Assembly: GCF_001544555.2 (NCBI RefSeq)
Contig: NZ_FCOK02000004.1
Location: 124,001 to 188,000 of the forward strand
Reading direction: 5' to 3'
DNA length: 64,000 nt
Source of the DNA: Caballeronia udeis
GTDB taxonomy: Bacteria > Pseudomonadota > Gammaproteobacteria > Burkholderiales > Burkholderiaceae
The notes beneath the pieces are model-generated. The model worked only from the letters and a program-made list of their open reading frames with translations. It did no database searches and was not told where the DNA came from. Made by a program: the position numbers and the translations under genes. Below, in pieces: positions 7,393-22,585 of the stretch (position 1 is the first letter of the stretch; every line of letters starts with the position of its first letter).

Positions 7393-7410
7393 TGGTGTAA
7401 TCGTTTTCCA
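7393..7410. promoter_or_regulatory. Candidate LacI-family operator upstream of the lacI gene
   Basis: TGGTGTAATCGTTTTCCA contains GTAATCGTTTTCC, which is repeated (reverse orientation) at 16237-16250 and nearly repeated at 16055-16066, both in front of the facing operon. The central CG and flanking A/T-rich half-sites are typical of LacI-family operators. Its position about 80 bp before the lacI start suggests autoregulation. The surrounding gap (7208-7485) holds no gene. Confidence 0.65.
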
Positions 7411-7485
7411 CTTATAGCGCCGAGTGCTAAACTAACCCGGCACTACGAAGAAGGAACGTGATCCTTCGACCTATTTCGTCGAGCC

Positions 7486-8550
7486 ATGAACAGACAGAAA
7501 GCCAAACCCAACATCAACGTGTTTGACGTCGCGAAGGCGGCAGGCGTGTCAGTCGCTACGGTCTCGCGCGCTTTCAACATCCCCAATCGTGTCAGCGCGG
7601 TGAGCAGGGAGAAGGTGTTGGCCGTGGCCAAGGAACTCGGCTACAGCCCCGACCCGGCAGCCAAGGCGTTACGCCTTCGCAAATCGTTCATCATTGGTGC
7701 AGTGATTCCATCACTCGACTACTCCATGTTCGCGCGGCTGACGCATGCGTTCGAAGAGCAACTGACATTGGCGGGTTACAGCGTGTTCGTGGTGACGAAC
7801 GGGTTCGACAACCGAAACATGCTCGATGCAGTCAAGCGGATCGTCGAACGCGGCGCGGAAGCGTTGTTACTGGTCGGGAAGATGGTGGATCCCAAGCTGC
7901 AAAGCTACCTTGCCGACAAGCAGATTCCCTGCGTGACTACCTACTCCTACAACGACGATGACCTCGTACCGTCCATCGGCTTTGACAACTTCGCGGCAAC
8001 CCGGCAAGCGGTCGAATTCCTGATCCGGCTGGGTCATCGCGAGATGGCGATGATCGCAGGTCCGCTGCAAGGAAACGATCGGCAACAAGCCCGGCTCAGC
8101 GGCTTTGAGAAAACCATGCAGGCTCAAGGACTGGGCGACAAGGCTCATGTCATCGAGAAAAGCTACGGCTCGGCGACGCATCAGGGGGCGGATGCAATGC
8201 GGCAGATCCATCATGAGTTTCCGGACGTCACCGCAGTCGTCTGTAACGCCGATGTCTTCGCACTCAGCGCGATAGCAGAATGCCGACGGCTTGGCCTGCG
8301 GGTGCCGGAAGACATGTCTGTTGTCGGATTCGATGACGACGACTACACCACCATCTTCTCCCCGGCGCTGACGACCATCGCTGTTCCTGCCGCGGAGATG
8401 GGGCGTCTTGCGGCGCGATCGCTGATCGGCGCCCTGACGCATGGAGGCAAAGTCACGCCTGCGCGGCTGGACACTCAGCTGATCGTGCGGGAGTCAACGA
8501 GTGTCCCCCGCATTGCCTGCACGAGTACAACACCGAAAGCAGTCGCGTGA
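7486..8550 (+). CDS. LacI-family transcriptional regulator
   Basis: 354 aa. The N-terminal LacI helix-turn-helix is clear (NVFDVAKAAGVSVATVSRAF, residues 10-29), followed by the hinge helix region (PAAKALRLRKS) and a periplasmic-binding-protein-like effector domain (GAVIPSLDY, FDNFAATRQAVEFLI, VVGFDDDDYTTIFSPALTTI). It faces the nine-gene minus-strand operon ending at 8624. A shared operator motif lies before this gene and before that operon, so it is very likely the operon's ligand-responsive repressor (inference). The effector is unknown. Confidence 0.95.
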   Translation: MNRQKAKPNINVFDVAKAAGVSVATVSRAFNIPNRVSAVSREKVLAVAKELGYSPDPAAKALRLRKSFIIGAVIPSLDYSMFARLTHAFEEQLTLAGYSVFVVTNGFDNRNMLDAVKRIVERGAEALLLVGKMVDPKLQSYLADKQIPCVTTYSYNDDDLVPSIGFDNFAATRQAVEFLIRLGHREMAMIAGPLQGNDRQQARLSGFEKTMQAQGLGDKAHVIEKSYGSATHQGADAMRQIHHEFPDVTAVVCNADVFALSAIAECRRLGLRVPEDMSVVGFDDDDYTTIFSPALTTIAVPAAEMGRLAARSLIGALTHGGKVTPARLDTQLIVRESTSVPRIACTSTTPKAVA

Positions 8551-8580
8551 AGTAGCCGCATAAAGGAAGCGCCGCCCGCT

Positions 8581-8596
8581 CACCGCACAGGCGGTG
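8581..8596. terminator. Possible terminator hairpin between convergent lacI and SDR genes
   Basis: CACCGC-ACAG-GCGGTG forms a perfect 6-bp stem with a four-base loop in the 73-bp gap between two convergent genes. There is no U-tract, so termination is uncertain. Confidence 0.35.
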
Positions 8597-8623
8597 TACC
8601 CGCGCAAGTTCCAACGAGCGGCG

Positions 8624-9376
8624 TTATCGTGCTGTATAACCGCCATCGACCGTGAACATGCCGCCGGTCGCAAACGAAGACTCGTCGCACGCCAGGAACA
8701 AGACCATCGTGGCGATCTCCTGCGGCGTGCCCATCCGGTTCACTGGCGCACGCGCTTTCAATCCGTGTACGAACGCGTCGGGATCAGGAACTTCCTTGAG
8801 CATCTTTTCGTAGTAGTTGGACCAGATCACGCCCGGCGCAATACTGTTGATTCGAATGTTCTTGTCCGCATGGTCGAGCGCCATCGAACGGGTGAGCGAG
8901 GCGACCCCACCCTTCGCTGCCACATAGGCCGCACGATCGGGAATGCCGCACACGGCGGCGGTCGACGAGATGTTGACTACCGCCCCCCCGCCCCGCTTTT
9001 CAATCTCCGGTATCCCATACTTGGAGCAGAGATAGACGCTTTTCAGATTCACGTCGATCACCTTGTCCCAGTCCTCTTCATCCGTGTTGACGACGCTGCC
9101 GCGAATACCGTAACCCGCATTGTTGACCAGGATGTCGAGTCCGCCAAATTCGGCTACGGTCGCGGCAATGAGGCGCTTGATCTGCGACGCAACCGTGACG
9201 TCCACACCTACTGCAAGCGCGTTTTCACCCAGCCCGCGCGCGACCTTCTCAGCTTGCTCGAGGTTGTTGTCCGCGACCACCACCCTTGCGCCTTCCTTGA
9301 CGAACAACGCTGCCGTGGCGGCTCCGATTCCGGCCGCCGCACCCGTCACGACAGCTACTTTTCCTTCGAGTCGCAT
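8624..9376 (-). CDS. SDR-family NAD(P)-dependent oxidoreductase
   Basis: 250 aa classical short-chain dehydrogenase. The Rossmann motif TGAAAGIGAATAALF (about residues 11-25), NNAGYG, the catalytic Ser in VNISSTAAVCG and the YVAAKGGV (YxxxK) motif are present, with the usual C-terminal FTVDGGYTA. An Asp (VADNN) at the end of strand beta-2 suggests NAD rather than NADP. Last gene of the LacI-associated operon. It probably oxidises or reduces a hydroxyl/keto intermediate of the pathway; the substrate is unknown. Confidence 0.93.
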   Translation of the reverse strand: MRLEGKVAVVTGAAAGIGAATAALFVKEGARVVVADNNLEQAEKVARGLGENALAVGVDVTVASQIKRLIAATVAEFGGLDILVNNAGYGIRGSVVNTDEEDWDKVIDVNLKSVYLCSKYGIPEIEKRGGGAVVNISSTAAVCGIPDRAAYVAAKGGVASLTRSMALDHADKNIRINSIAPGVIWSNYYEKMLKEVPDPDAFVHGLKARAPVNRMGTPQEIATMVLFLACDESSFATGGMFTVDGGYTAR

Positions 9377-9393
9377 CTTCTTTTCTCACAAGA

Positions 9394-10257
9394 TTAAATT
9401 GAATGTTCAAGACGGCGGATAACCGCATCCTCAATGCTCATTGCAGCAAGCCATGACGTTCGGGGGTTATCCGGCAATGGATTATTTTCGAGGCGAATCG
9501 ACAAGCGGCCAAACGCGCCGACCGCGTCGATTTCATGCACGTTCTTGTCGACGCCCGGGTCGGCCATCATGGTGACCGTCGTTCTCTCAAAGCCGATCCC
9601 AGCCAGCGCGATCGCCGCAGTGACGTTGGCGTTCTTCGGGAATAGCCTTGCCGACTCGCCGGCCGTGCCTTCGAAGATCACCGTGGGTTTGTCGATAGTA
9701 AGCATATCGAACTGTGCTTCTGCCGGAGAGCCCTGCCATGCACGAGGCGGTTTTCGTCCGGTGTAGCGGACTGAGTCGAGACCTCCCATGCGCGCCGCGT
9801 GCAATGCATCGATGCCCCCAATCGCGCCGGATACCAAGGTCAGCGTCGAACCGCCGAGTGTCATCGCGCGATTGATCTTCTCGAGCAGCGGCGCGGACGC
9901 CAGCGCGCCGAGCGAAACAAGGATGGTGTCGACTCCACGCTCAAGAAGCGGAATGACCGCCTCATCCACTGCCGCGTGGCCCGCGCACTCGACGCAAAGC
10001 GTCGGGTTCCATGAAACAAGAGAGGCGACGTCATGGAAAACCTCGATCCCGATTGATTGCATGTTGAGAGAGCCCGCCTCATGAGCGGGAACGAGACAGG
10101 CCAGTTGGCGAGCCCTGACGCCTCGTTCACGTAACGTGGCCAAAACGCGCTTTCCCATCGCACCCATACCGACGATCGCGATCCGTTCATCCAGGGCAAA
10201 ATTTGTGTCGCGATCCACGGGGACCGCCGAGTGTCCGCTGAGCTCCGGCATCGTCAT
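9394..10257 (-). CDS. L-aspartate dehydrogenase-like NAD(P)-dependent enzyme
   Basis: 287 aa, of the NadX/aspartate dehydrogenase family. The N-terminal dinucleotide motif IAIVGMGAMGKRV follows a ~28-residue extension. The C-terminal domain has the family blocks PKNANVTAAIALAGIG and DPGVDKNVHEID, containing the conserved His. In NadX this enzyme deaminates aspartate to iminoaspartate; here, in a LacI-controlled importer operon, it more likely oxidises or reduces another alpha-amino or imino acid (inference). It sits 4 bp after the alpha/beta hydrolase gene. Confidence 0.85.
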   Translation of the reverse strand: MTMPELSGHSAVPVDRDTNFALDERIAIVGMGAMGKRVLATLRERGVRARQLACLVPAHEAGSLNMQSIGIEVFHDVASLVSWNPTLCVECAGHAAVDEAVIPLLERGVDTILVSLGALASAPLLEKINRAMTLGGSTLTLVSGAIGGIDALHAARMGGLDSVRYTGRKPPRAWQGSPAEAQFDMLTIDKPTVIFEGTAGESARLFPKNANVTAAIALAGIGFERTTVTMMADPGVDKNVHEIDAVGAFGRLSIRLENNPLPDNPRTSWLAAMSIEDAVIRRLEHSI

Positions 10258-10260
10258 GAG

Positions 10261-11034
10261 TCATCTGTCCAGGAATGTGCCGATCCGCAATGCGAACGCT
10301 TGTGGATCGACCTGTGGGAAAAAATGACCGCCCTGAGCCTCGACGAGCGTCGCGTTCCGAATGCGTTGCGCGAGATCTTCCGAGTGATGGAACGGCACGA
10401 TGAAATCGTCGCGTGCACCCATGACCAGCGTTTCTTTGTCGATCACTGCCAGTTCGTCGGCGCGGTCATACCCAAGCAACATCTCGATTCGATTGATCAC
10501 TGTCTGCTTGTCAAACTCATCGTCGCCGTCGAACTGCAGCGGCGACGACGCCACATTTTTTTCGTACCACTGAGCGTCATAACCGCCTAGCCGCGAGAAC
10601 GCCGAATAGGCGCGCGTACCCAGCTTCTCCAGCATCCGCCGCCGCAGATCAAAGAGATCCCTGAAGCGTCGGTCCGGCTTCACCCAGCCGCCGCTCAGAA
10701 CAAGCTTGCCGCACCGGCCCGGATGATCGAGCGCAAGCGTCTGTACCACCAGGCTGCCCGTGGAGTGCCCAATAAAATGCGCATGGATCACGCTTTCGGC
10801 GTCGAGCACGTCCAGAGCGGCTTGCGCGATCGCTGGTATGCGCTGGTCCGCGTCACTGACGCTACGCCCAACTCCCGGATGGTCGAAACAGATCACCTGA
10901 TAGCGGTCCGCCAGCAACGCGGCAACCGGGCGCCAGAAGGATGCGAGACCGCCAAGCCCGGAGATGCACACGAGGGCCTCGCCACTGCCGGCTGCTTCGT
11001 AGTGGATGCCTGAATTTGTACGGCCTTCGGTCAT
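10261..11034 (-). CDS. Alpha/beta-fold hydrolase
   Basis: 257 aa from the ATG at 11034, whose first bases overlap the cupin stop by 4 bp. Strand order and motifs of the family are visible: VCISGLGGLASFWRPV (oxyanion region), FDHPGVGRS, the nucleophile elbow GHSTGSLV, an Asp in GARDDFIVP and the catalytic His in QGGHFFPQVDP. It resembles RutD or 3-oxoadipate enol-lactonase in size and layout. Probable role: hydrolysis of a lactone, amide or carbamoyl intermediate in the pathway, but the bond is unknown. Confidence 0.88.
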   Translation of the reverse strand: MTEGRTNSGIHYEAAGSGEALVCISGLGGLASFWRPVAALLADRYQVICFDHPGVGRSVSDADQRIPAIAQAALDVLDAESVIHAHFIGHSTGSLVVQTLALDHPGRCGKLVLSGGWVKPDRRFRDLFDLRRRMLEKLGTRAYSAFSRLGGYDAQWYEKNVASSPLQFDGDDEFDKQTVINRIEMLLGYDRADELAVIDKETLVMGARDDFIVPFHHSEDLAQRIRNATLVEAQGGHFFPQVDPQAFALRIGTFLDR

Positions 11035-11582
11035 CCCGGCCTCTTGCTGCTCTGGCCAGGCTGGGTGAACACGGTTCGGGCCTCGATTTGTGCCGCGTCC
11101 GCCGGACGTGCAAAGGGTGCTGGAGCAGCTTCGCCCGGCGTGCGCGGCCGGCCGATCTCGCGAAAGAAGGTTTCGAGTCCCGCGGGCACGAAGAACCACA
11201 CCCAATGCAGATCGACATCGCCATCGTTGATGAACCTATGCTTGCGCAGTTTGCCGAGGAACAGCGTCACCCCAGGTTCGAGCCGATACTCCTTGCCGTC
11301 CAGTTCGGCCTTGCCCGCGCCGGAGATGAAGTGCAGCACCTCTTCGTTATCGGTGTGAGAGTGAAGGCGAACAACGCCGCCCGGCGGCAGGGTTTGCGTG
11401 CCAACCGCAAACTGACGGTCCATCGGCACCAGGTGCGGCCCGACATGGACCGACGCGTATCCGTTCGCCGGCTGCGGCTGCCAGTAACTTTCTTCCTTCC
11501 CGGGATGCACGTACAGATACCTGCCCGTGCCGGCGACCTCTGCGGGTGCCTCGTTATGACGTTCAATCAGGTCGTCGATCAT
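11031..11582 (-). CDS. Cupin-domain protein
   Basis: 183 aa. Start at 11582 has an ideal site (GGAGATTGAG before ATG); a longer reading frame exists but lacks one. A single cupin barrel spans about residues 50-125: motif 1 is LPPGGVVRLHSHTDNEEVLHF (His-x-His and Glu metal ligands, quoted in two parts: PPGGVVRLHSHTDNEE, VLHF), motif 2 is LFLGKLRKHRFIN. A mostly polar C-terminal tail follows. Cupins in catabolic operons act as isomerases, dioxygenases or lyases; the sequence does not decide. Confidence 0.85.
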   Translation of the reverse strand: MIDDLIERHNEAPAEVAGTGRYLYVHPGKEESYWQPQPANGYASVHVGPHLVPMDRQFAVGTQTLPPGGVVRLHSHTDNEEVLHFISGAGKAELDGKEYRLEPGVTLFLGKLRKHRFINDGDVDLHWVWFFVPAGLETFFREIGRPRTPGEAAPAPFARPADAAQIEARTVFTQPGQSSKRPG

Positions 11583-11732
11583 CTCAATCTCCAGTTCAAA
11601 AATGAACACCGCGATACGGGAAACTCTTGCATGTCCCGCGATGGAAAACGTTTACGCGCATGCGCGTAAACGCGTCCCTCTGCGCAACCGGCACCCGCGA
11701 CGACGATCCCGGCTTGCGTTGCTTCAACGCCC

Positions 11733-12767
11733 CTAAGCCCTTTTCTTCCAGAGGTCGTTTAACGTGTAGCCCGTTGGAAAGGGATCCGATGAATCAAGCA
11801 CGTACTGATGAAATCCCGTGATCCACGCGCCGCCGGAAATAGCGGGGCGTATACCCGGCTTGCCACCCACCGTAAGCGTCTCGACGATCTCACCGGTAAA
11901 TTCAGAGCCGATGATCGATTTGTGGACGAACCGCTCGCCCGGCTCGATCAGGCCACGTGCATGAAGAACCGCCAGCCGGGCGCTGGTTCCCGTGCCACAC
12001 GGCGAACGATCGAGGCGGCCCGGCGAGACGATCACGCCGTTCCTTGACGAAAGGCCGTCCGGTCCGCGTTCGAGAGGCCCGGCGAACAAGGTCTGGTTGA
12101 TCGTATGGATCTGCGGATTCTCCGGATGCACCGCGGGAATCTGCACCGCCGCCGCTGCCTTGATCGCCTCGCCTGCTTCGACCATATCGGCGGCTTCATC
12201 CGGAACGATGGAAAAACCAAACGCCGCCGCGTTGACAAGCACGTAGATCATTCCGCCATAAGCAACATCCACCGTCAGCGTGCCAATACCCGGCACCTCC
12301 AGCGGAAGATCAAGTCCGAACACGAAACACGGCACATTGGCGAAGCGGACATTGAGGCACTTGCCGTCGCGGCACTCGGCCCGAACCTTTATCAGGCCGC
12401 CGGGCGCCTCCAGCGTCAGGTCGGTGTATGGCTCCTGCATGGGCAACATGCCCGTCTCCAGCAGCGCGGTTACCGTGCAGATCGTGTTGCTGCCCGACAT
12501 GGGCGGGTAATGCTCGGACTCCATGATCACGAATCCCGCGTCCGCCTGGCGGTCGCAGGGCGGAAGCACGAGGTTGATACATTGAGTCACTGTCCCTCTC
12601 GGCTCCTGCAGCAAGAATTTGCGCAGATCGTCAGCCTGTGTTTCCAGATATCGCATCTTCTCGAACATCGTTTTCCCGGGGACGTCGAGAACGCCGCCGG
12701 TGATCACGTCGTTGCGCTCGCCGCCGGTGTGCATGCCCACAACACTCACCATTCGCTTCATTTTCAT
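11733..12767 (-). CDS. Proline racemase / hydroxyproline epimerase family protein (Ser/Cys type)
   Basis: 344 aa from 12767, where GGGAG stands eight bases upstream (the outer ATG at 12773 is too close to it). The family opening VVGMHTGGERNDV and the C-terminal DRSPCGTGTSA motif are intact. The first catalytic position is Ser (PPMSGSNT, about residue 91) instead of the usual Cys, while the second (about 254) is Cys. Members with Cys/Cys are racemases or epimerases, and Cys/Thr members are 3-hydroxyproline dehydratases; Ser/Cys is a minority type. Next to an amino-acid importer, it probably epimerises an imported imino or amino acid. Exact substrate unknown. Confidence 0.88.
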   Translation of the reverse strand: MKMKRMVSVVGMHTGGERNDVITGGVLDVPGKTMFEKMRYLETQADDLRKFLLQEPRGTVTQCINLVLPPCDRQADAGFVIMESEHYPPMSGSNTICTVTALLETGMLPMQEPYTDLTLEAPGGLIKVRAECRDGKCLNVRFANVPCFVFGLDLPLEVPGIGTLTVDVAYGGMIYVLVNAAAFGFSIVPDEAADMVEAGEAIKAAAAVQIPAVHPENPQIHTINQTLFAGPLERGPDGLSSRNGVIVSPGRLDRSPCGTGTSARLAVLHARGLIEPGERFVHKSIIGSEFTGEIVETLTVGGKPGIRPAISGGAWITGFHQYVLDSSDPFPTGYTLNDLWKKRA

Positions 12768-12794
12768 CTGCATCGCTCCCGAAACATTTAGCCA

Positions 12795-13454
12795 CTAGAA
12801 CCGCTGGAGTACCTTTCGTTCGATATGCCCGACGCATCGCGTCAGCGGATACGCGACCACGAAGTAAATGAGCGCCGTCGTCGTCAGGACTTCCACCGGC
12901 CGGGCGCTGGTGTTCGCAATGTTCTGGCCGACGAACATCAGGTCGGCCATGCCAAGCGCGGAGACCAGGGCGCTTTCCTTGAACAGGCTGACTATGTTCG
13001 AGAGCAAGGTGGGCATCGAACGGATAAAAGCGAGAGGCAGGACAACGTGCGTCACGCGTGTCATGCGGCTCAGTCCAAGCGCCACGCACGCGTCCAGTTC
13101 TTCCTTCTTGATGGTCATCAGCGCCCCGCGGAAGGTCTCGCACGTGATTGCGCCCATGTACAAGCTAAGCGCGGCAAACGATGCGACGCCTACGCTGATG
13201 TTTACATGAAGCAAAAGCGGCAGGCAGAAGAAGAACCAGAACAACTGGACCAGCAGCGGTGTCCCTCGAAACACTTCCACATAACCGATCGCTATTGCGC
13301 GAGCAAAGCCGGGGCCGTAGGTGCGTACGAGGCTCGTCGCGAATCCCGCGGCGATGCCGGCGATCGCGGACGCCAGGGTCAGCCTGACGGTAAGCGCGAG
13401 CCCGTCGAGCAATGGTTCGATATACCCCAGCAGGAACACGAAATTGAATTTCAT
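12795..13454 (-). CDS. Amino-acid ABC transporter permease (second subunit)
   Basis: 219 aa, HisM/GlnP-type inner-membrane permease with about five transmembrane segments. The EAA loop is readable near residues 120-150 (EELDACVALGLSRMTRVTHV, then VLPLAFIRSMPTL), and the start region holds LALTVRLTLASAIAGI. It follows the first permease by 6 bp and pairs with the ATPase and binding protein of the same operon to form a polar amino-acid importer. Confidence 0.93.
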   Translation of the reverse strand: MKFNFVFLLGYIEPLLDGLALTVRLTLASAIAGIAAGFATSLVRTYGPGFARAIAIGYVEVFRGTPLLVQLFWFFFCLPLLLHVNISVGVASFAALSLYMGAITCETFRGALMTIKKEELDACVALGLSRMTRVTHVVLPLAFIRSMPTLLSNIVSLFKESALVSALGMADLMFVGQNIANTSARPVEVLTTTALIYFVVAYPLTRCVGHIERKVLQRF

Positions 13455-13460
13455 GACTGG

Positions 13461-14135
13461 CTACGCCGCTGAATAGCCGAAGGACCGTTTGCGCTCGATC
13501 ACACGCAACGCCTGCGCAACGAGCACCGACACAACGAGGTACAAAATGCCGATCGTCGTGAAAACCTCCAATGGCCTATAGGTATCCGAAGCAATCTGCT
13601 TGCCTCGGTACATCAACTCCTGGATCGCCACCACCGAGAGCAGCGACGTCTGCTGCAACGCCGAGATGCCATTGGTGACAAGAACCGGCAGCGCCACGCG
13701 AAAAGCATGCGGAAGCACGATCAGCGTCGTGCGCTGAAAGGGCGAGAAGCCCAGTGCGACACCGGCGTCGTGCTGGTCGTGCGGAACCGATTGGATGCCG
13801 CCCCGGTACGCCTCGGCATTGAACGCTGTCAGGTTCAAAGAAATGGCGAGAATGCCCATTACCATGGGACTGAGAAACACGTTGAAGATTATCGGCACGC
13901 AGTAGAAGAACCAGACCACCTGGACCAGCGCCGGTGTGCAGCGGAAGAACTCAATGAACGCCGAGACCGGCAGGCGGACAAGCCGTGACTTGCTTTGAGT
14001 CAGCATCCCGACAGCAAAACCCGCTACCACGCCTATTGCATTCGCACATAACGCGATCACGAGCGTAACCGCCAGGCCGTGCCACAGAAGACCCAGTCCC
14101 GAGGAGATCCAGGAGAAATCCAGAGAATAGTTCAC
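13461..14135 (-). CDS. Amino-acid ABC transporter permease (first subunit)
   Basis: 224 aa, HisQ/GlnP-type permease. GTG start at 14135 with AGGAAAGAG just upstream. Typical features are LLWHGLAVTLVIALCANAIG, FFRCTPALVQVVWFFYCVP and the EAA loop DAGVALGFSPFQRTTLIVLP. It forms a heterodimer with the next gene product (inferred). Confidence 0.93.
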   Translation of the reverse strand: MNYSLDFSWISSGLGLLWHGLAVTLVIALCANAIGVVAGFAVGMLTQSKSRLVRLPVSAFIEFFRCTPALVQVVWFFYCVPIIFNVFLSPMVMGILAISLNLTAFNAEAYRGGIQSVPHDQHDAGVALGFSPFQRTTLIVLPHAFRVALPVLVTNGISALQQTSLLSVVAIQELMYRGKQIASDTYRPLEVFTTIGILYLVVSVLVAQALRVIERKRSFGYSAA

Positions 14136-14144
14136 GGCTCTTTC

Positions 14145-15026
14145 CTAGTTCACATGCAGGACGTTGTTCAGAAATTCCTGGGTCCTGGTGTGTTTTGGGT
14201 TCTTGAACATTTCGTCGGGCGTTCCTGACTCGACGACCACGCCGTCCGCGCAGAACACGATGCGGGACGCGACTTTCCTCGCAAACCACATGTCGTGCGT
14301 CACCATGACCATGGGCATTCCCTGCGAAGCCAGCTCGAGGATGACAGTCTCGACCTCCGCAACCAGTTCGGGATCCAGCGCGGATGTGACCTCGTCGAAC
14401 AGCATGAGCCGGGGGTCCAGCATCAAGGCGCGTGCGATCGCAACGCGTTGCTTTTGGCCGCCTGAGAGCTGTGCGGGATAGGCGCGCGTTTTAGTTGCCA
14501 GTCCGAAACGATCCAGAAGTGACGTCGCCCTTCGTTCCGCCTCGGCCCGCGGTTCGCCTTTCACCTTGCAGGGCGCGAGCGTCAGGTTGCGCAAGACGTC
14601 CAGGTGAGCAAAGAGCGTGTAGTTCTGGAAGACCATCCCTATCTGCTTGCGGATGCCCAGGTCCATGCGTGTGCGCTGGTTTGCCTCGTCAAACGACAGA
14701 TAGGGGCTGCCATTGAACTCGACAGTGCCACCGTCGATAGTTTCAAGCCCCATCAGTACACGCAGCAACGTGCTCTTTCCCCCTCCGCTCGGTCCGATCA
14801 CCACCAGGCGATCATCGTGCTGCATATCCAGATCGAGACCCTTGAGGACCTTTACCGTAGGACCGTATTGCTTGGATAAGCCCTTGATGCTGACAAGTGG
14901 CTGCGTGCCCGCTTGCAAGGCCGGGCGGCCCGGCACATGCCCTTCCTGCCATCCTGCCGGGCGCGCATCGGCGTCATGTTTCATCAGCCGGCTCACTTTC
15001 ATGACCTGTTCCATGTCGTTGCTCAT
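14145..15026 (-). CDS. Amino-acid ABC transporter ATP-binding protein
   Basis: 293 aa, about 40 residues longer than typical GlnQ/HisP because of an N-terminal extension of roughly 45 residues ahead of the conserved LVSIKGLSKQYG. Walker A GPSGGGKST, signature LSGGQKQRVAIARAL and Walker B LMLFDEVTSALDPE are intact. A later in-frame ATG could be the true start. It powers the importer of the LacI-associated operon. Confidence 0.94.
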   Translation of the reverse strand: MSNDMEQVMKVSRLMKHDADARPAGWQEGHVPGRPALQAGTQPLVSIKGLSKQYGPTVKVLKGLDLDMQHDDRLVVIGPSGGGKSTLLRVLMGLETIDGGTVEFNGSPYLSFDEANQRTRMDLGIRKQIGMVFQNYTLFAHLDVLRNLTLAPCKVKGEPRAEAERRATSLLDRFGLATKTRAYPAQLSGGQKQRVAIARALMLDPRLMLFDEVTSALDPELVAEVETVILELASQGMPMVMVTHDMWFARKVASRIVFCADGVVVESGTPDEMFKNPKHTRTQEFLNNVLHVN

Positions 15027-15053
15027 TGTCTGGCTGTCTATGGAAAAAACCGG

Positions 15054-15944
15054 CTACTGTTTTACCGACTGCGCCGCCTGCTTCACGGCCGCTTCGACGC
15101 TGGATTTGACGAAGCCGCTCTTGGTTTGCTGCTGGATGAATTGATTCAGCTCGTTGAGGTCAGCGCTTGTGTAGCTCTTGTTCATTCCGAAGGCCACGTC
15201 CTGAAGATTGAAGGGCGGGTCCGGCCGGTAGATCTCCGCCCAGTCGGGATGGGCCGCCTGGAAGATCAGGTTGGCATCGGATTGGTCGGCAAGAAAATCG
15301 GCACGATGCGACATGAGCGCAAGGCGGGTGCTGTCGGCGTCGGGCAGACGAAGGATCTGCGCCTGCTTAAGCACCGGACTGATCGCCTTGTCGTCGGTCG
15401 TACCCTGCACGACGGCAACAATTAAATCGGGCTTGTCGATATCGGCGACCGACTTGATCTGTTTCGGCACCTTTACATCGGAATGGCTGTACACGAAGTT
15501 CGTATCGTTACGAACGACGGCCGTCGAGAAGTTGATCACCTGCTCCCTCACGGGCGTCCGATTGATCGCCATGGCCAGATCCCATTTGTCGGTCTGCAAC
15601 CCGGCAATCATGTTGTCCCAGGTCGTATCGACAAACTTCACCTTGACCTTCAGAACGTCCTCACCGAAGCGGCGGCACAGGTCGCTGAATGCACCCGTAT
15701 AACTACCAGTCTTCGCATCACGCACGACAAACGGAGGCGCCAGCGCAGCGCCGCAACGCAGTTCGCCCGCTTTGCGCACTGACTGGAAAGTCGTTGGATC
15801 AGCCGCGTGAGCGGGAACAACCAGGCTGCTCATGCCTGTAGTAAAACAAACCAGAGCCAGCACAGCCTTGAGCAGCGGGCGAAGCGTTTGGGCGGACGGA
15901 GCGCGGCGAGGGGCCGGTATAAGCGTGTTCTTCATGGTGGTCAT
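15054..15944 (-). CDS. Amino-acid ABC transporter substrate-binding protein
   Basis: 296 aa, family 3 solute-binding protein (SBP_bac_3). An Ala-rich signal peptide ends near AHAADP (about residue 48 from 15944); the n-region is long, so the ATG at 15935 is an equally good start. The mature part begins with the typical KAGELRCGAALAPPFVVRD and contains DLAMAINRTPVREQVINFS. First gene of the nine-gene operon; it defines the imported ligand, probably a polar or imino acid, but the specificity cannot be read by eye. Confidence 0.93.
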   Translation of the reverse strand: MTTMKNTLIPAPRRAPSAQTLRPLLKAVLALVCFTTGMSSLVVPAHAADPTTFQSVRKAGELRCGAALAPPFVVRDAKTGSYTGAFSDLCRRFGEDVLKVKVKFVDTTWDNMIAGLQTDKWDLAMAINRTPVREQVINFSTAVVRNDTNFVYSHSDVKVPKQIKSVADIDKPDLIVAVVQGTTDDKAISPVLKQAQILRLPDADSTRLALMSHRADFLADQSDANLIFQAAHPDWAEIYRPDPPFNLQDVAFGMNKSYTSADLNELNQFIQQQTKSGFVKSSVEAAVKQAAQSVKQ

Positions 15945-16054
15945 GGACTCCAAGGAATATGGACGAATTAACACTTCCCTTAACGCTCCGCGGGCTCAAG
16001 GCGACTTTCCGGACTTCGCTCACCCCTACCAATCAACTTTGCCTCAGTTGGGTG

Positions 16055-16066
16055 GTAATCGTTTAC
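16055..16066. promoter_or_regulatory. Candidate LacI-family operator 1 of the operon
   Basis: GTAATCGTTTAC is a near-perfect dyad (GTAA and TTAC arms) within TGGTAATCGTTTACGA, closely matching the sites at 7397-7409 and 16237-16250. It is about 110 bp before the binding-protein start. Confidence 0.65.
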
Positions 16067-16171
16067 GAGGATGATCGGAGCCAATCACCGTTGGGATGAC
16101 GACCGTCCTGTCGCCAGGAAACAGCTGATGTCTGAGCGCGTACAACCATGCTAGTAGAAAAAAATTAAAGC

Positions 16172-16183
16172 GTAAAGCTTTAC
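16172..16183. promoter_or_regulatory. Perfect 12-bp palindrome, possible further operator
   Basis: GTAAAGCTTTAC is a perfect inverted repeat with the same GTAA/TTAC arms and spacing as the site at 16055, but with AGCT instead of TCGT in the centre. It could be a variant operator or a site for another protein. Confidence 0.45.
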
Positions 16184-16236
16184 AAACTTGACCAGTCATT
16201 TTCACTAGGCTCAATGCCTATAAAGGTTCTATGAAT

Positions 16237-16250
16237 GGAAAACGATTACC
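16237..16250. promoter_or_regulatory. Candidate LacI-family operator 2 of the operon
   Basis: GGAAAACGATTACC read on the minus strand is GGTAATCGTTTTCC, whose 13-base core is identical to the site before lacI (7397-7409). Two sites about 180 bp apart would allow looping, a known LacI-family behaviour. Confidence 0.65.
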
Positions 16251-16459
16251 AATATTGGTTTGGCAGCAGTGTTAAACCGGCAGTCCGTCCATCCGTATGA
16301 CGGCCGGACGCGGGCGGTCCGGCCGGTGAGCGCGGCTTGATGAAAGGGGCGAGGATATTGAGCGAAGCAGAGGGCGATACGCGTGCGCGCCCTGGCCGCG
16401 CGCTGAGATCGACGGCCTGATGTGGCCTGTCCGGGGAGGACATGGTGTGACGGGAGATT

Positions 16460-19820: not shown

Positions 19821-22585
<2,765 letters not shown>

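Follow-up and report, generated by a model that had tools for sequence, protein, structure and literature searches.

We examined a 64,000-nucleotide window of the Caballeronia udeis genome (10.05 Mb in 242 contigs; the window covers positions 124001 to 188000 of contig 4) and focused on a nine-gene operon coding for an ATP-binding cassette (ABC) importer, a proline-racemase-family enzyme, a cupin, a RutD-like alpha/beta hydrolase, an aspartate dehydrogenase (AspDH) and an SDR oxidoreductase, with a lacI gene next to it. All five enzymes are again found together at single loci of distantly related bacteria, and the operon is therefore not a chance assembly. Our best explanation of the whole, which we put forward tentatively, is that the operon might import a hydroxyproline-like imino acid, open its ring and yield aspartate. 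It would be of a known kind, a regulated imino-acid catabolic operon, with a ring-opening step that is possibly new.

The nine genes lie on the minus strand between positions 8624 and 15974, and lacI (7486 to 8550, plus strand; Pfam LacI and Peripla_BP_3) is convergent with the 3' end of the operon. An initial annotation of this DNA had described the same gene set, with lacI facing its end, and all of it was found in place. That annotation also listed several 4-bp overlaps, which was incorrect: the only one is the ATGA at positions 11031 to 11034, at the cupin/hydrolase junction. Measured from the ends of the open reading frames, the remaining gaps are of 3 to 27 bp, apart from the racemase-cupin gap, the sole sizeable one, which measures 123 bp, or 150 bp if the cupin starts at an internal Met codon.

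Among 200 genomes drawn evenly from the host family, AspDH matches were found in 102 and cupin matches in 38 (threshold E ≤ 0.001), and a cupin of 54-62% identity was present in only two other genomes (G051 and G034), with G120 reaching 41%. A scan of the genomes of 84,980 species with a cupin alignment, from which very near relatives may be omitted, returned 13 loci, including that of G034 (L081). Of the named relatives, those of Burkholderia sp. S171 and of a Caballeronia metagenome bin (L071 and L072) were nearest to the window operon. Relatives of the hydrolase (at least 39% identity) and of AspDH (at least 33%) were each found at 10 of the 13 loci, and of the SDR at 8 (at least 57%). Any racemase-family gene was present at 10 loci, a Ser/Cys one at 8, and a LacI relative (at least 46%) at 5. 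The five enzymes stood together at six loci (L071, L072, L074, L076, L077 and L081), and the cluster of one Acinetobacter genome is apparently split across two contig ends (L079 and L083). Genes of the relatives were called by a simple codon-score or longest-frame script, which can miss genes or misplace starts; gene presence was rechecked by tblastn in these 13 loci and in the 24 alphaproteobacterial loci described below. The initial annotation had named such a neighborhood search as a check, and the recurrence of the set contradicts a chance assembly.

The hydrolase is rare. Within the genus to which the genome of L077 belongs, two of 298 genomes had a close relative of it (E ≤ 1e-40), both at loci already known, and a class-level search (E ≤ 1e-45) returned only the host genome among 369. 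Across ten loci, with the shared ancestry of the hosts uncontrolled, cupin, hydrolase, AspDH and SDR diverged in parallel, their pairwise identities correlating with r values of 0.91-0.96, and those of the racemase-family enzyme correlated less with the other four (r 0.60-0.76). With the cupin of a Pararhizobium locus (L082) as query, matches were obtained in 9 of 297 genomes of its family and 27 of 297 of its order, and 24 of the 33 distinct new loci were examined. AspDH was found in 10 of these 24 alphaproteobacterial loci and the hydrolase in 15. Two were complete for the five enzymes, L121 and L127, the latter in the order LacI-PRAC-CUP-ABH-AspDH-SDR-NIPSNAP. L134 holds a Ser/Cys racemase-family gene, the cupin, the SDR and LacI, without hydrolase and AspDH.

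Repression of the operon by LacI is predicted from putative operators. Exact copies of GTAATCGTTTWC were found at 7397 to 7408 upstream of lacI (GTAATCGTTTTC, plus strand) and twice upstream of the gene for the periplasmic binding protein, at 16055 to 16066 (GTAATCGTTTAC, plus strand) and at 16238 to 16249, within the palindromic site TGGAAAACGATTACCA (16236 to 16251). A fourth site, GTAAACGTTTTC, with one mismatch to the window motif, lies on the minus strand at 11644 to 11655 in the racemase-cupin gap. L071 and L072 share all four sites, the fourth as the same word. The outermost sites nearly match the limits of 7393 to 16250 that the initial annotation had set. With up to one mismatch allowed, the window contains five matches to the operator word against 0.32 expected, a count reached by none of 100 shuffles; four of the five are in the operon and the fifth, at 22436, lies outside it.

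A related 14-base palindrome was sought with one mismatch allowed in 17 loci, with the expectation taken from 20 resamples each. Six loci (L074, L076, L077, L078, L079 and L083) hold 25 sites against approximately 0.25 expected, and 23 of the 25 are at, or no more than 320 bp upstream of, a called gene, among them cupin, aldehyde dehydrogenase (ALDH), GMC, dienelactone-hydrolase-family, chemoreceptor-like and transport genes. The six loci come from records with the labels Pantoea, Paucimonas, Pseudomonas, Cupriavidus and Acinetobacter; the genome labelled Pantoea was placed in the same genus as the Pseudomonas one. L121 and L134 have one site each, and the palindrome was absent from the window, L071, L072, L073, L075, L080 to L082 and L127. 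The Burkholderia-type sites have their core in common with it and differ in the outer bases; the core word is found directly upstream of the Ser/Cys racemase-family gene in L127 and L134, and operator-like sites related to these are also found ahead of cassette genes of Pseudomonas, Acinetobacter and Cupriavidus. LacI homologues accompany the cassette with 46-49% identity in L076, L078 and L083 and 42-43% in L127 and L134. An operator-like word also precedes a chemoreceptor-like gene, identified by eye, in L077 and L074 (near 7671-7759 and 8749-8839), which suggests that Pseudomonas-type hosts respond to the substrate by chemotaxis.

The racemase-family enzyme (11733 to 12773, minus strand; PF05544, E 9e-126) has a Ser/Cys dyad (MSGSN ... 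DRSPCGTG), likewise present in 11 cassette copies (L071, L072, L074, L076, L077, L079, L081, L082, L121, L127 and L134), and we propose that it may be a hydroxyproline-type 2-epimerase. Its two catalytic bases are among those expected of a 4-hydroxyproline 2-epimerase, either Cys/Cys or, in the orange cluster, Ser/Cys. It shares the dyad, the SGSN motif and the fold family with the Ser/Cys epimerases of that cluster (4LB0; PMC4113996), whereas its score is higher against Ser/Thr members (357 bits for 4K8L) than against 4LB0 (287.5 bits). It did not pass the curated models of 4-hydroxyproline epimerase (4HypE), scoring 254.6 against a cut-off of 376 for NF010578, 159.4 against 450 for NF052296 and 116.7 against 442 for NF010577. 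No oxidase, deaminase or semialdehyde dehydrogenase gene, the further mark of a 4HypE, was found in the operon.

The importer consists of an amino-acid-type family 3 binding protein (15054 to 15974; SBP_bac_3), an ATPase (14145 to 15026; ABC_tran) and permeases 1 (13461 to 14135) and 2 (12795 to 13454; both BPD_transp_1), all encoded on the minus strand. Its relatives at the Pararhizobium cassette are 49%, 64%, 56% and 57% identical, respectively. Homology of the binding protein names no ligand, its best PDB matches being ancestral cyclohexadienyl dehydratases.

The cupin (11031 to 11609, minus strand; translation may instead begin at the Met codon at 11582) would be the ring-opening dioxygenase. 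Its metal site, His-x-His...Glu...His (3-His/1-Glu), is present in 38 of 38 sequences, and quercetinases are its nearest relatives by sequence in the PDB and stand in the top row of a fold search. The entries of the quercetin 2,3-dioxygenase cupins YxaG and QueD supply these best matches. Unlike them, the window protein has one cupin domain in approximately 183 residues and a WQPxPANG motif, and it is 19-24% identical to two YxaG entries across the structural alignment. The hydrolase (10261 to 11034, minus strand; Abhydrolase_1; start placed by the ATGA overlap) is a candidate amide (N-formyl) hydrolase. Its profile has RutD (3v48, E 3.4e-34) as best PDB match, and the Ser-Asp-His triad is conserved (S90 in 25, D209 in 26 and H236 in 26 of 26 sequences), with a score under the cut-off of the curated RutD model TIGR03611 (154.1 against 238.5).

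AspDH (9394 to 10257, minus strand; Asp_DH_C, PF01958, 117 against a cut-off of 27) is predicted to act on aspartate/oxaloacetate, as the proposed last step. It passes two of the eight NCBIfam models matched, NF009828 (280.3 > 177) and NF009827 (275.1 > 226). Residues N239, H241, N264 and S268 are found in 20 of 20 aligned sequences, the window's included, and T267 in 19. In an alignment to 2dc1, the NxHE and NPxTS residues are common to the window protein and the A. fulgidus AspDH. The His of AspDH has a catalytic role. The SDR (8624 to 9376, minus strand; adh_short_C2; YxxxK at residues 151-155), with relatives of 57-97% identity at the 8 cupin loci that hold it, would be the ring-hydroxyl dehydrogenase. 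There is precedent for such an activity, as the accessible parts of PMC8914325 and PMC11199699 report that human BDH2 and a bacterial L-KDF dehydrogenase act on cis-4-hydroxy-L-proline.

The link to hydroxyproline comes from the rest of the host genome and from related loci. A racemase-family gene on host contig C17 (L141) passes a 4-hydroxyproline epimerase model (575 > 376) and has as neighbors oxidase-family, DHDPS-family and Xaa-Pro-dipeptidase-like (255.7 against 500) genes and a GntR regulator. Another, at C4:88955 (L143), passes a second such model (478 > 442), and one on C9 (L142) passes a trans-3-hydroxyproline dehydratase model (654.7 > 540). Thus, trans-4- and trans-3-hydroxyproline seem already served elsewhere in the host, and with two 4HypE genes and one dehydratase at hand the operon probably serves another isomer or analogue. 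L121 combines the five enzymes with a 4-hydroxyproline epimerase (577 bits, cut-off 376) and D-amino-acid oxidase-family and DHDPS-family proteins; the presence of two distinct epimerases at a single locus suggests that their substrates differ, such as a second pair of stereoisomers or a close analogue. Next to the cassette, L134 and L081, like L121, have a racemase-family gene of the Cys/Cys kind together with an oxidase-family gene, and the cupin is found without hydrolase and AspDH in the hydroxyproline-type loci L063, L073 and L075. In L073 it adjoins a pyrroline-carboxylate-reductase family gene and an aconitase X gene (PF04412), whose best NCBIfam model, NF051439 (cis-3-hydroxyproline dehydratase), gives 398 bits, below the cut-off of 700. 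These canonical genes in the host and at the cassette loci make the pathway look hydroxyproline related. Host contig C5 also carries, at about 191708 to 192344 (L144), a broken Ser-type proline-racemase-family copy, 42% identical to that of the window and with internal stops, followed by a regulator-like remnant; it is possibly the trace of a related cassette.

The canonical trans-4-hydroxy-L-proline pathway (4HypE, D-hydroxyproline dehydrogenase, a DHDPS-family deaminase and alpha-ketoglutarate semialdehyde dehydrogenase) also has a proline-racemase-family enzyme first, and its genes share loci with the cassette in L121, L134 and L081. The window operon differs from it in having the cupin, hydrolase, AspDH and SDR instead of the oxidase, deaminase and semialdehyde dehydrogenase; the canonical-type locus of the host is L141. 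The initial annotation was thus right that these genes are absent from the operon, but they are present elsewhere in the same genome. Its proposal of a LacI-type operon for a cyclic amino (imino) acid holds up, as a conserved operon for which no described match was found; the pathway seems to be related to that of hydroxyproline, not unrelated to it.

Under the proposed route, each of the five enzymes has one role. The importer would take up a hydroxyproline-like compound, and the Ser/Cys racemase-family enzyme would epimerise it at C2. The SDR would oxidise the ring hydroxyl to give 4-oxoproline or, after C2-N oxidation, a 4-hydroxypyrrole form. The cupin would cleave the C4-C5 bond of the enol in an O2-dependent reaction, yielding N-formyl-aspartate (or, from the hydroxypyrrole form, N-formyl-aminofumarate), from which the hydrolase would remove formate to leave aspartate or its enamine, and AspDH would interconvert aspartate and iminosuccinate/oxaloacetate. 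Opening of a 4-oxidised proline at C4-C5 fits, because aspartate needs N-C(COOH)-C-COOH, exactly the skeleton of N-formyl-aspartate. The substrate, the order of the steps, the ring cleavage and aspartate as the product are predictions made from sequence. For the cupin and hydrolase, whose roles the initial annotation had left open, we infer ring cleavage and then amide hydrolysis. The specific version, in which the cupin opens an oxidised hydroxyproline (4-oxoproline or 4-hydroxypyrrole-2-carboxylate) at C4-C5 to give aspartate and formate, and the core of the LacI operator is common to beta- and gammaproteobacteria, is doubtful and a little less probable than the general one. A gene of the Pararhizobium locus passes the model of aspartase (aspartate ammonia-lyase; TIGR00839, 695.2 > 681.2), which fits an aspartate product, and in L077 AspDH is followed by phosphoenolpyruvate-carboxykinase-like and aspartate-aminotransferase-like genes, recognised by eye only.

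Nicotinate breakdown proceeds through a hydroxylase, a ring-cleaving dioxygenase and a deformylase. The HpaB-type monooxygenase-cupin-hydrolase-AspDH order of L132 resembles this series and speaks for ring cleavage by the cupin. The proposed route would have a logic in common with that pathway (NicX, then NicD) and with RutD, in which a dioxygenase opens the N-ring and an alpha/beta hydrolase removes the acyl or amine part. It would differ from the nicotinate pathway in its cupin dioxygenase fold (that of NicX is different), in its aspartate-type end product and in a start compound that is probably a saturated imino acid.

Several results weigh against this route. The racemase-family enzyme is below the cut-off of every NCBIfam equivalog model it matches, with 430.5 against 550 for the best, a trans-3-hydroxyproline dehydratase model, and 254.2 against 540 for a further one; AspDH fails six of its eight models, including TIGR03855 (174.7 against 206.55); and neither BDH2 nor L-KDF dehydrogenase is named among the best 60 PDB matches of the window SDR. 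According to the accessible part of PMC4364671, ordinary hydroxyproline epimerases also take cis-4-hydroxy-L-proline, which weakens the need for a second epimerase for another 4-hydroxy isomer. The cupin fold is common to isomerases and lyases, the top rows of the fold search are close in Z, and the model has a pLDDT of 66. Genome-wide, GTAAWCGTTTWC has seven matches, four of them in this 9-kb stretch, but so does the reversed control; the word is therefore not rare as such, and all that stands out is how it clusters at the operon. The remaining three matches (on C8, C20 and C25) were counted as chance: no cassette-type enzyme is nearby, and that on C20 is at the start of another LacI-family gene. 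Furthermore, L074, L076, L077 and L079 also hold dienelactone-hydrolase-family, NIPSNAP and mostly ALDH and GMC genes (family-scanned only in L076, by eye in the other three), none of which the scheme needs, and several of which (dienelactone-hydrolase-family, ALDH and GMC) sit behind operator-like sites. Lastly, the cupin-hydrolase-AspDH trio occurs without a racemase-family gene in L080 and in 8 of the 24 alphaproteobacterial loci (L122 to L126, L128, L131 and L132), and the cupin occurs without AspDH in 14 of the 24, 13 of which also lack a racemase-family gene. Since eight alphaproteobacterial loci hold the trio in this way, it is a separate module, and the reach of the cupin subfamily extends past this pathway, presumably to other substrates too.

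The last two points speak for the strongest alternative, to which we give almost the same weight as to our best explanation: the operon would act on an N-heterocycle that is larger or carries other substituents (a plant alkaloid, a hydroxypipecolate or an N-heteroaromatic compound). The likeness to hydroxyproline breakdown would then be family history only, and the GMC, ALDH and dienelactone-hydrolase-family enzymes behind the operator-like sites would process a side chain in some relatives. The company kept by the trio in alphaproteobacteria agrees with this. In L132 (8145 to 11768) the trio follows the HpaB-type monooxygenase gene, and the same 20 kb contain one gene of the molybdenum-hydroxylase type and one for an FAA hydrolase; this cluster may be that of an N-heteroaromatic pathway. 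L080, L122 to L126 and L131 hold a conserved cluster of cupin, AspDH and hydrolase with an FAD_binding_2-type protein. Most of them also have a roughly 580-residue protein, genes for E1/E2 dehydrogenase and one resembling that of 3-hydroxyacyl-CoA dehydrogenase; a B12-binding domain was found in the 580-residue protein of both loci scanned, L124 and L121. However, the Burkholderia-type operon is devoid of all these extra genes, and hydroxyproline-type genes adjoin the cassette in L121, L134 and L081.

It is unlikely that the operon serves 3-hydroxyproline instead, with the Ser/Cys enzyme epimerising or dehydrating trans-3-hydroxy-L-proline, and either the SDR oxidising cis-3-hydroxy-D-proline or AspDH acting as a ketimine reductase in place of one of the ProC/OCD type. 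The available portion of PMC4113996 describes the orange cluster of the proline racemase superfamily, in which the member of solved structure carries a Ser/Cys dyad, as promiscuous for 3-hydroxyproline epimerisation, and that of PMC5144071 describes PA1255 as a bifunctional dehydratase/2-epimerase on trans-3-hydroxy-L-proline; the aconitase X next to the L073 cupin points the same way. Nevertheless, the host already has the trans-3-hydroxyproline dehydratase gene on C9, and on chemical grounds cleavage of the 3-oxoproline ring should give no substrate for AspDH, yet the AspDH residues are kept in all 20 sequences. We also considered a route from 3-oxoproline to beta-alanine/oxalate and discarded it, since it would leave AspDH without a function.

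Still less likely is a purely hydrolytic and redox pathway, in which the cupin would be an isomerase, a lyase or a non-catalytic protein, as its fold, shared with isomerases and lyases, might allow, and the hydrolase a lactonase or esterase; the proximity of the quercetinases by sequence and fold, the strict 3-His/1-Glu ligand set and the neighbor logic of L132 argue for a dioxygenase. That the genes came together by chance or through degeneration and share no pathway, as the rarity of close hydrolase relatives might suggest, is highly improbable in view of the same genes in similar order in unrelated orders, the operator-like sites and the correlated divergence.

AspDH is found in the host family in another common cluster (L064 to L067 and L070), with a thiamine diphosphate (ThDP) enzyme, a Rieske oxygenase, an ALDH, a hydrolase and an SDR, recognised by eye. 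Such a cluster was seen by eye in five of six AspDH-centred regions; it too pairs AspDH with an SDR and, in four as called, with a hydrolase. A cupin was recognised in L064 and L065, neither of which was matched by the window cupin. No racemase-family gene was called there, and AspDH and hydrolase are 47-51% and at most 31% identical, respectively, to those of the window. In view of these sequence differences and of the missing racemase-family gene, this context was rejected as the origin of the operon.

No description of the enzyme combination or of the route was found in the open-access literature, with few subscription papers covered. Literature on 4-oxoproline and cis-4-hydroxyproline gave the SDR precedent only, titles and the beginnings of abstracts on N-formylaspartate showed none on this route, and the accessible part of PMC5554190 on aspartate dehydrogenases gave no gene-context information. 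The operon offers a compact testable set, comprising the binding protein, five enzymes and the repressor with defined candidate operators.

Collagen and plant walls are rich in hydroxyprolines. Rarer isomers occur in peptide antibiotics, as the available portion of PMC5144071 states. In the literature examined, the described bacterial routes epimerise, oxidise, deaminate or dehydrate hydroxyprolines to reach alpha-ketoglutarate or proline. If our proposal is true, an O2-dependent ring opening to aspartate would be a new type of step in hydroxyproline breakdown, and it would give a function to a cupin subfamily and to the Ser/Cys branch of the proline-racemase superfamily.

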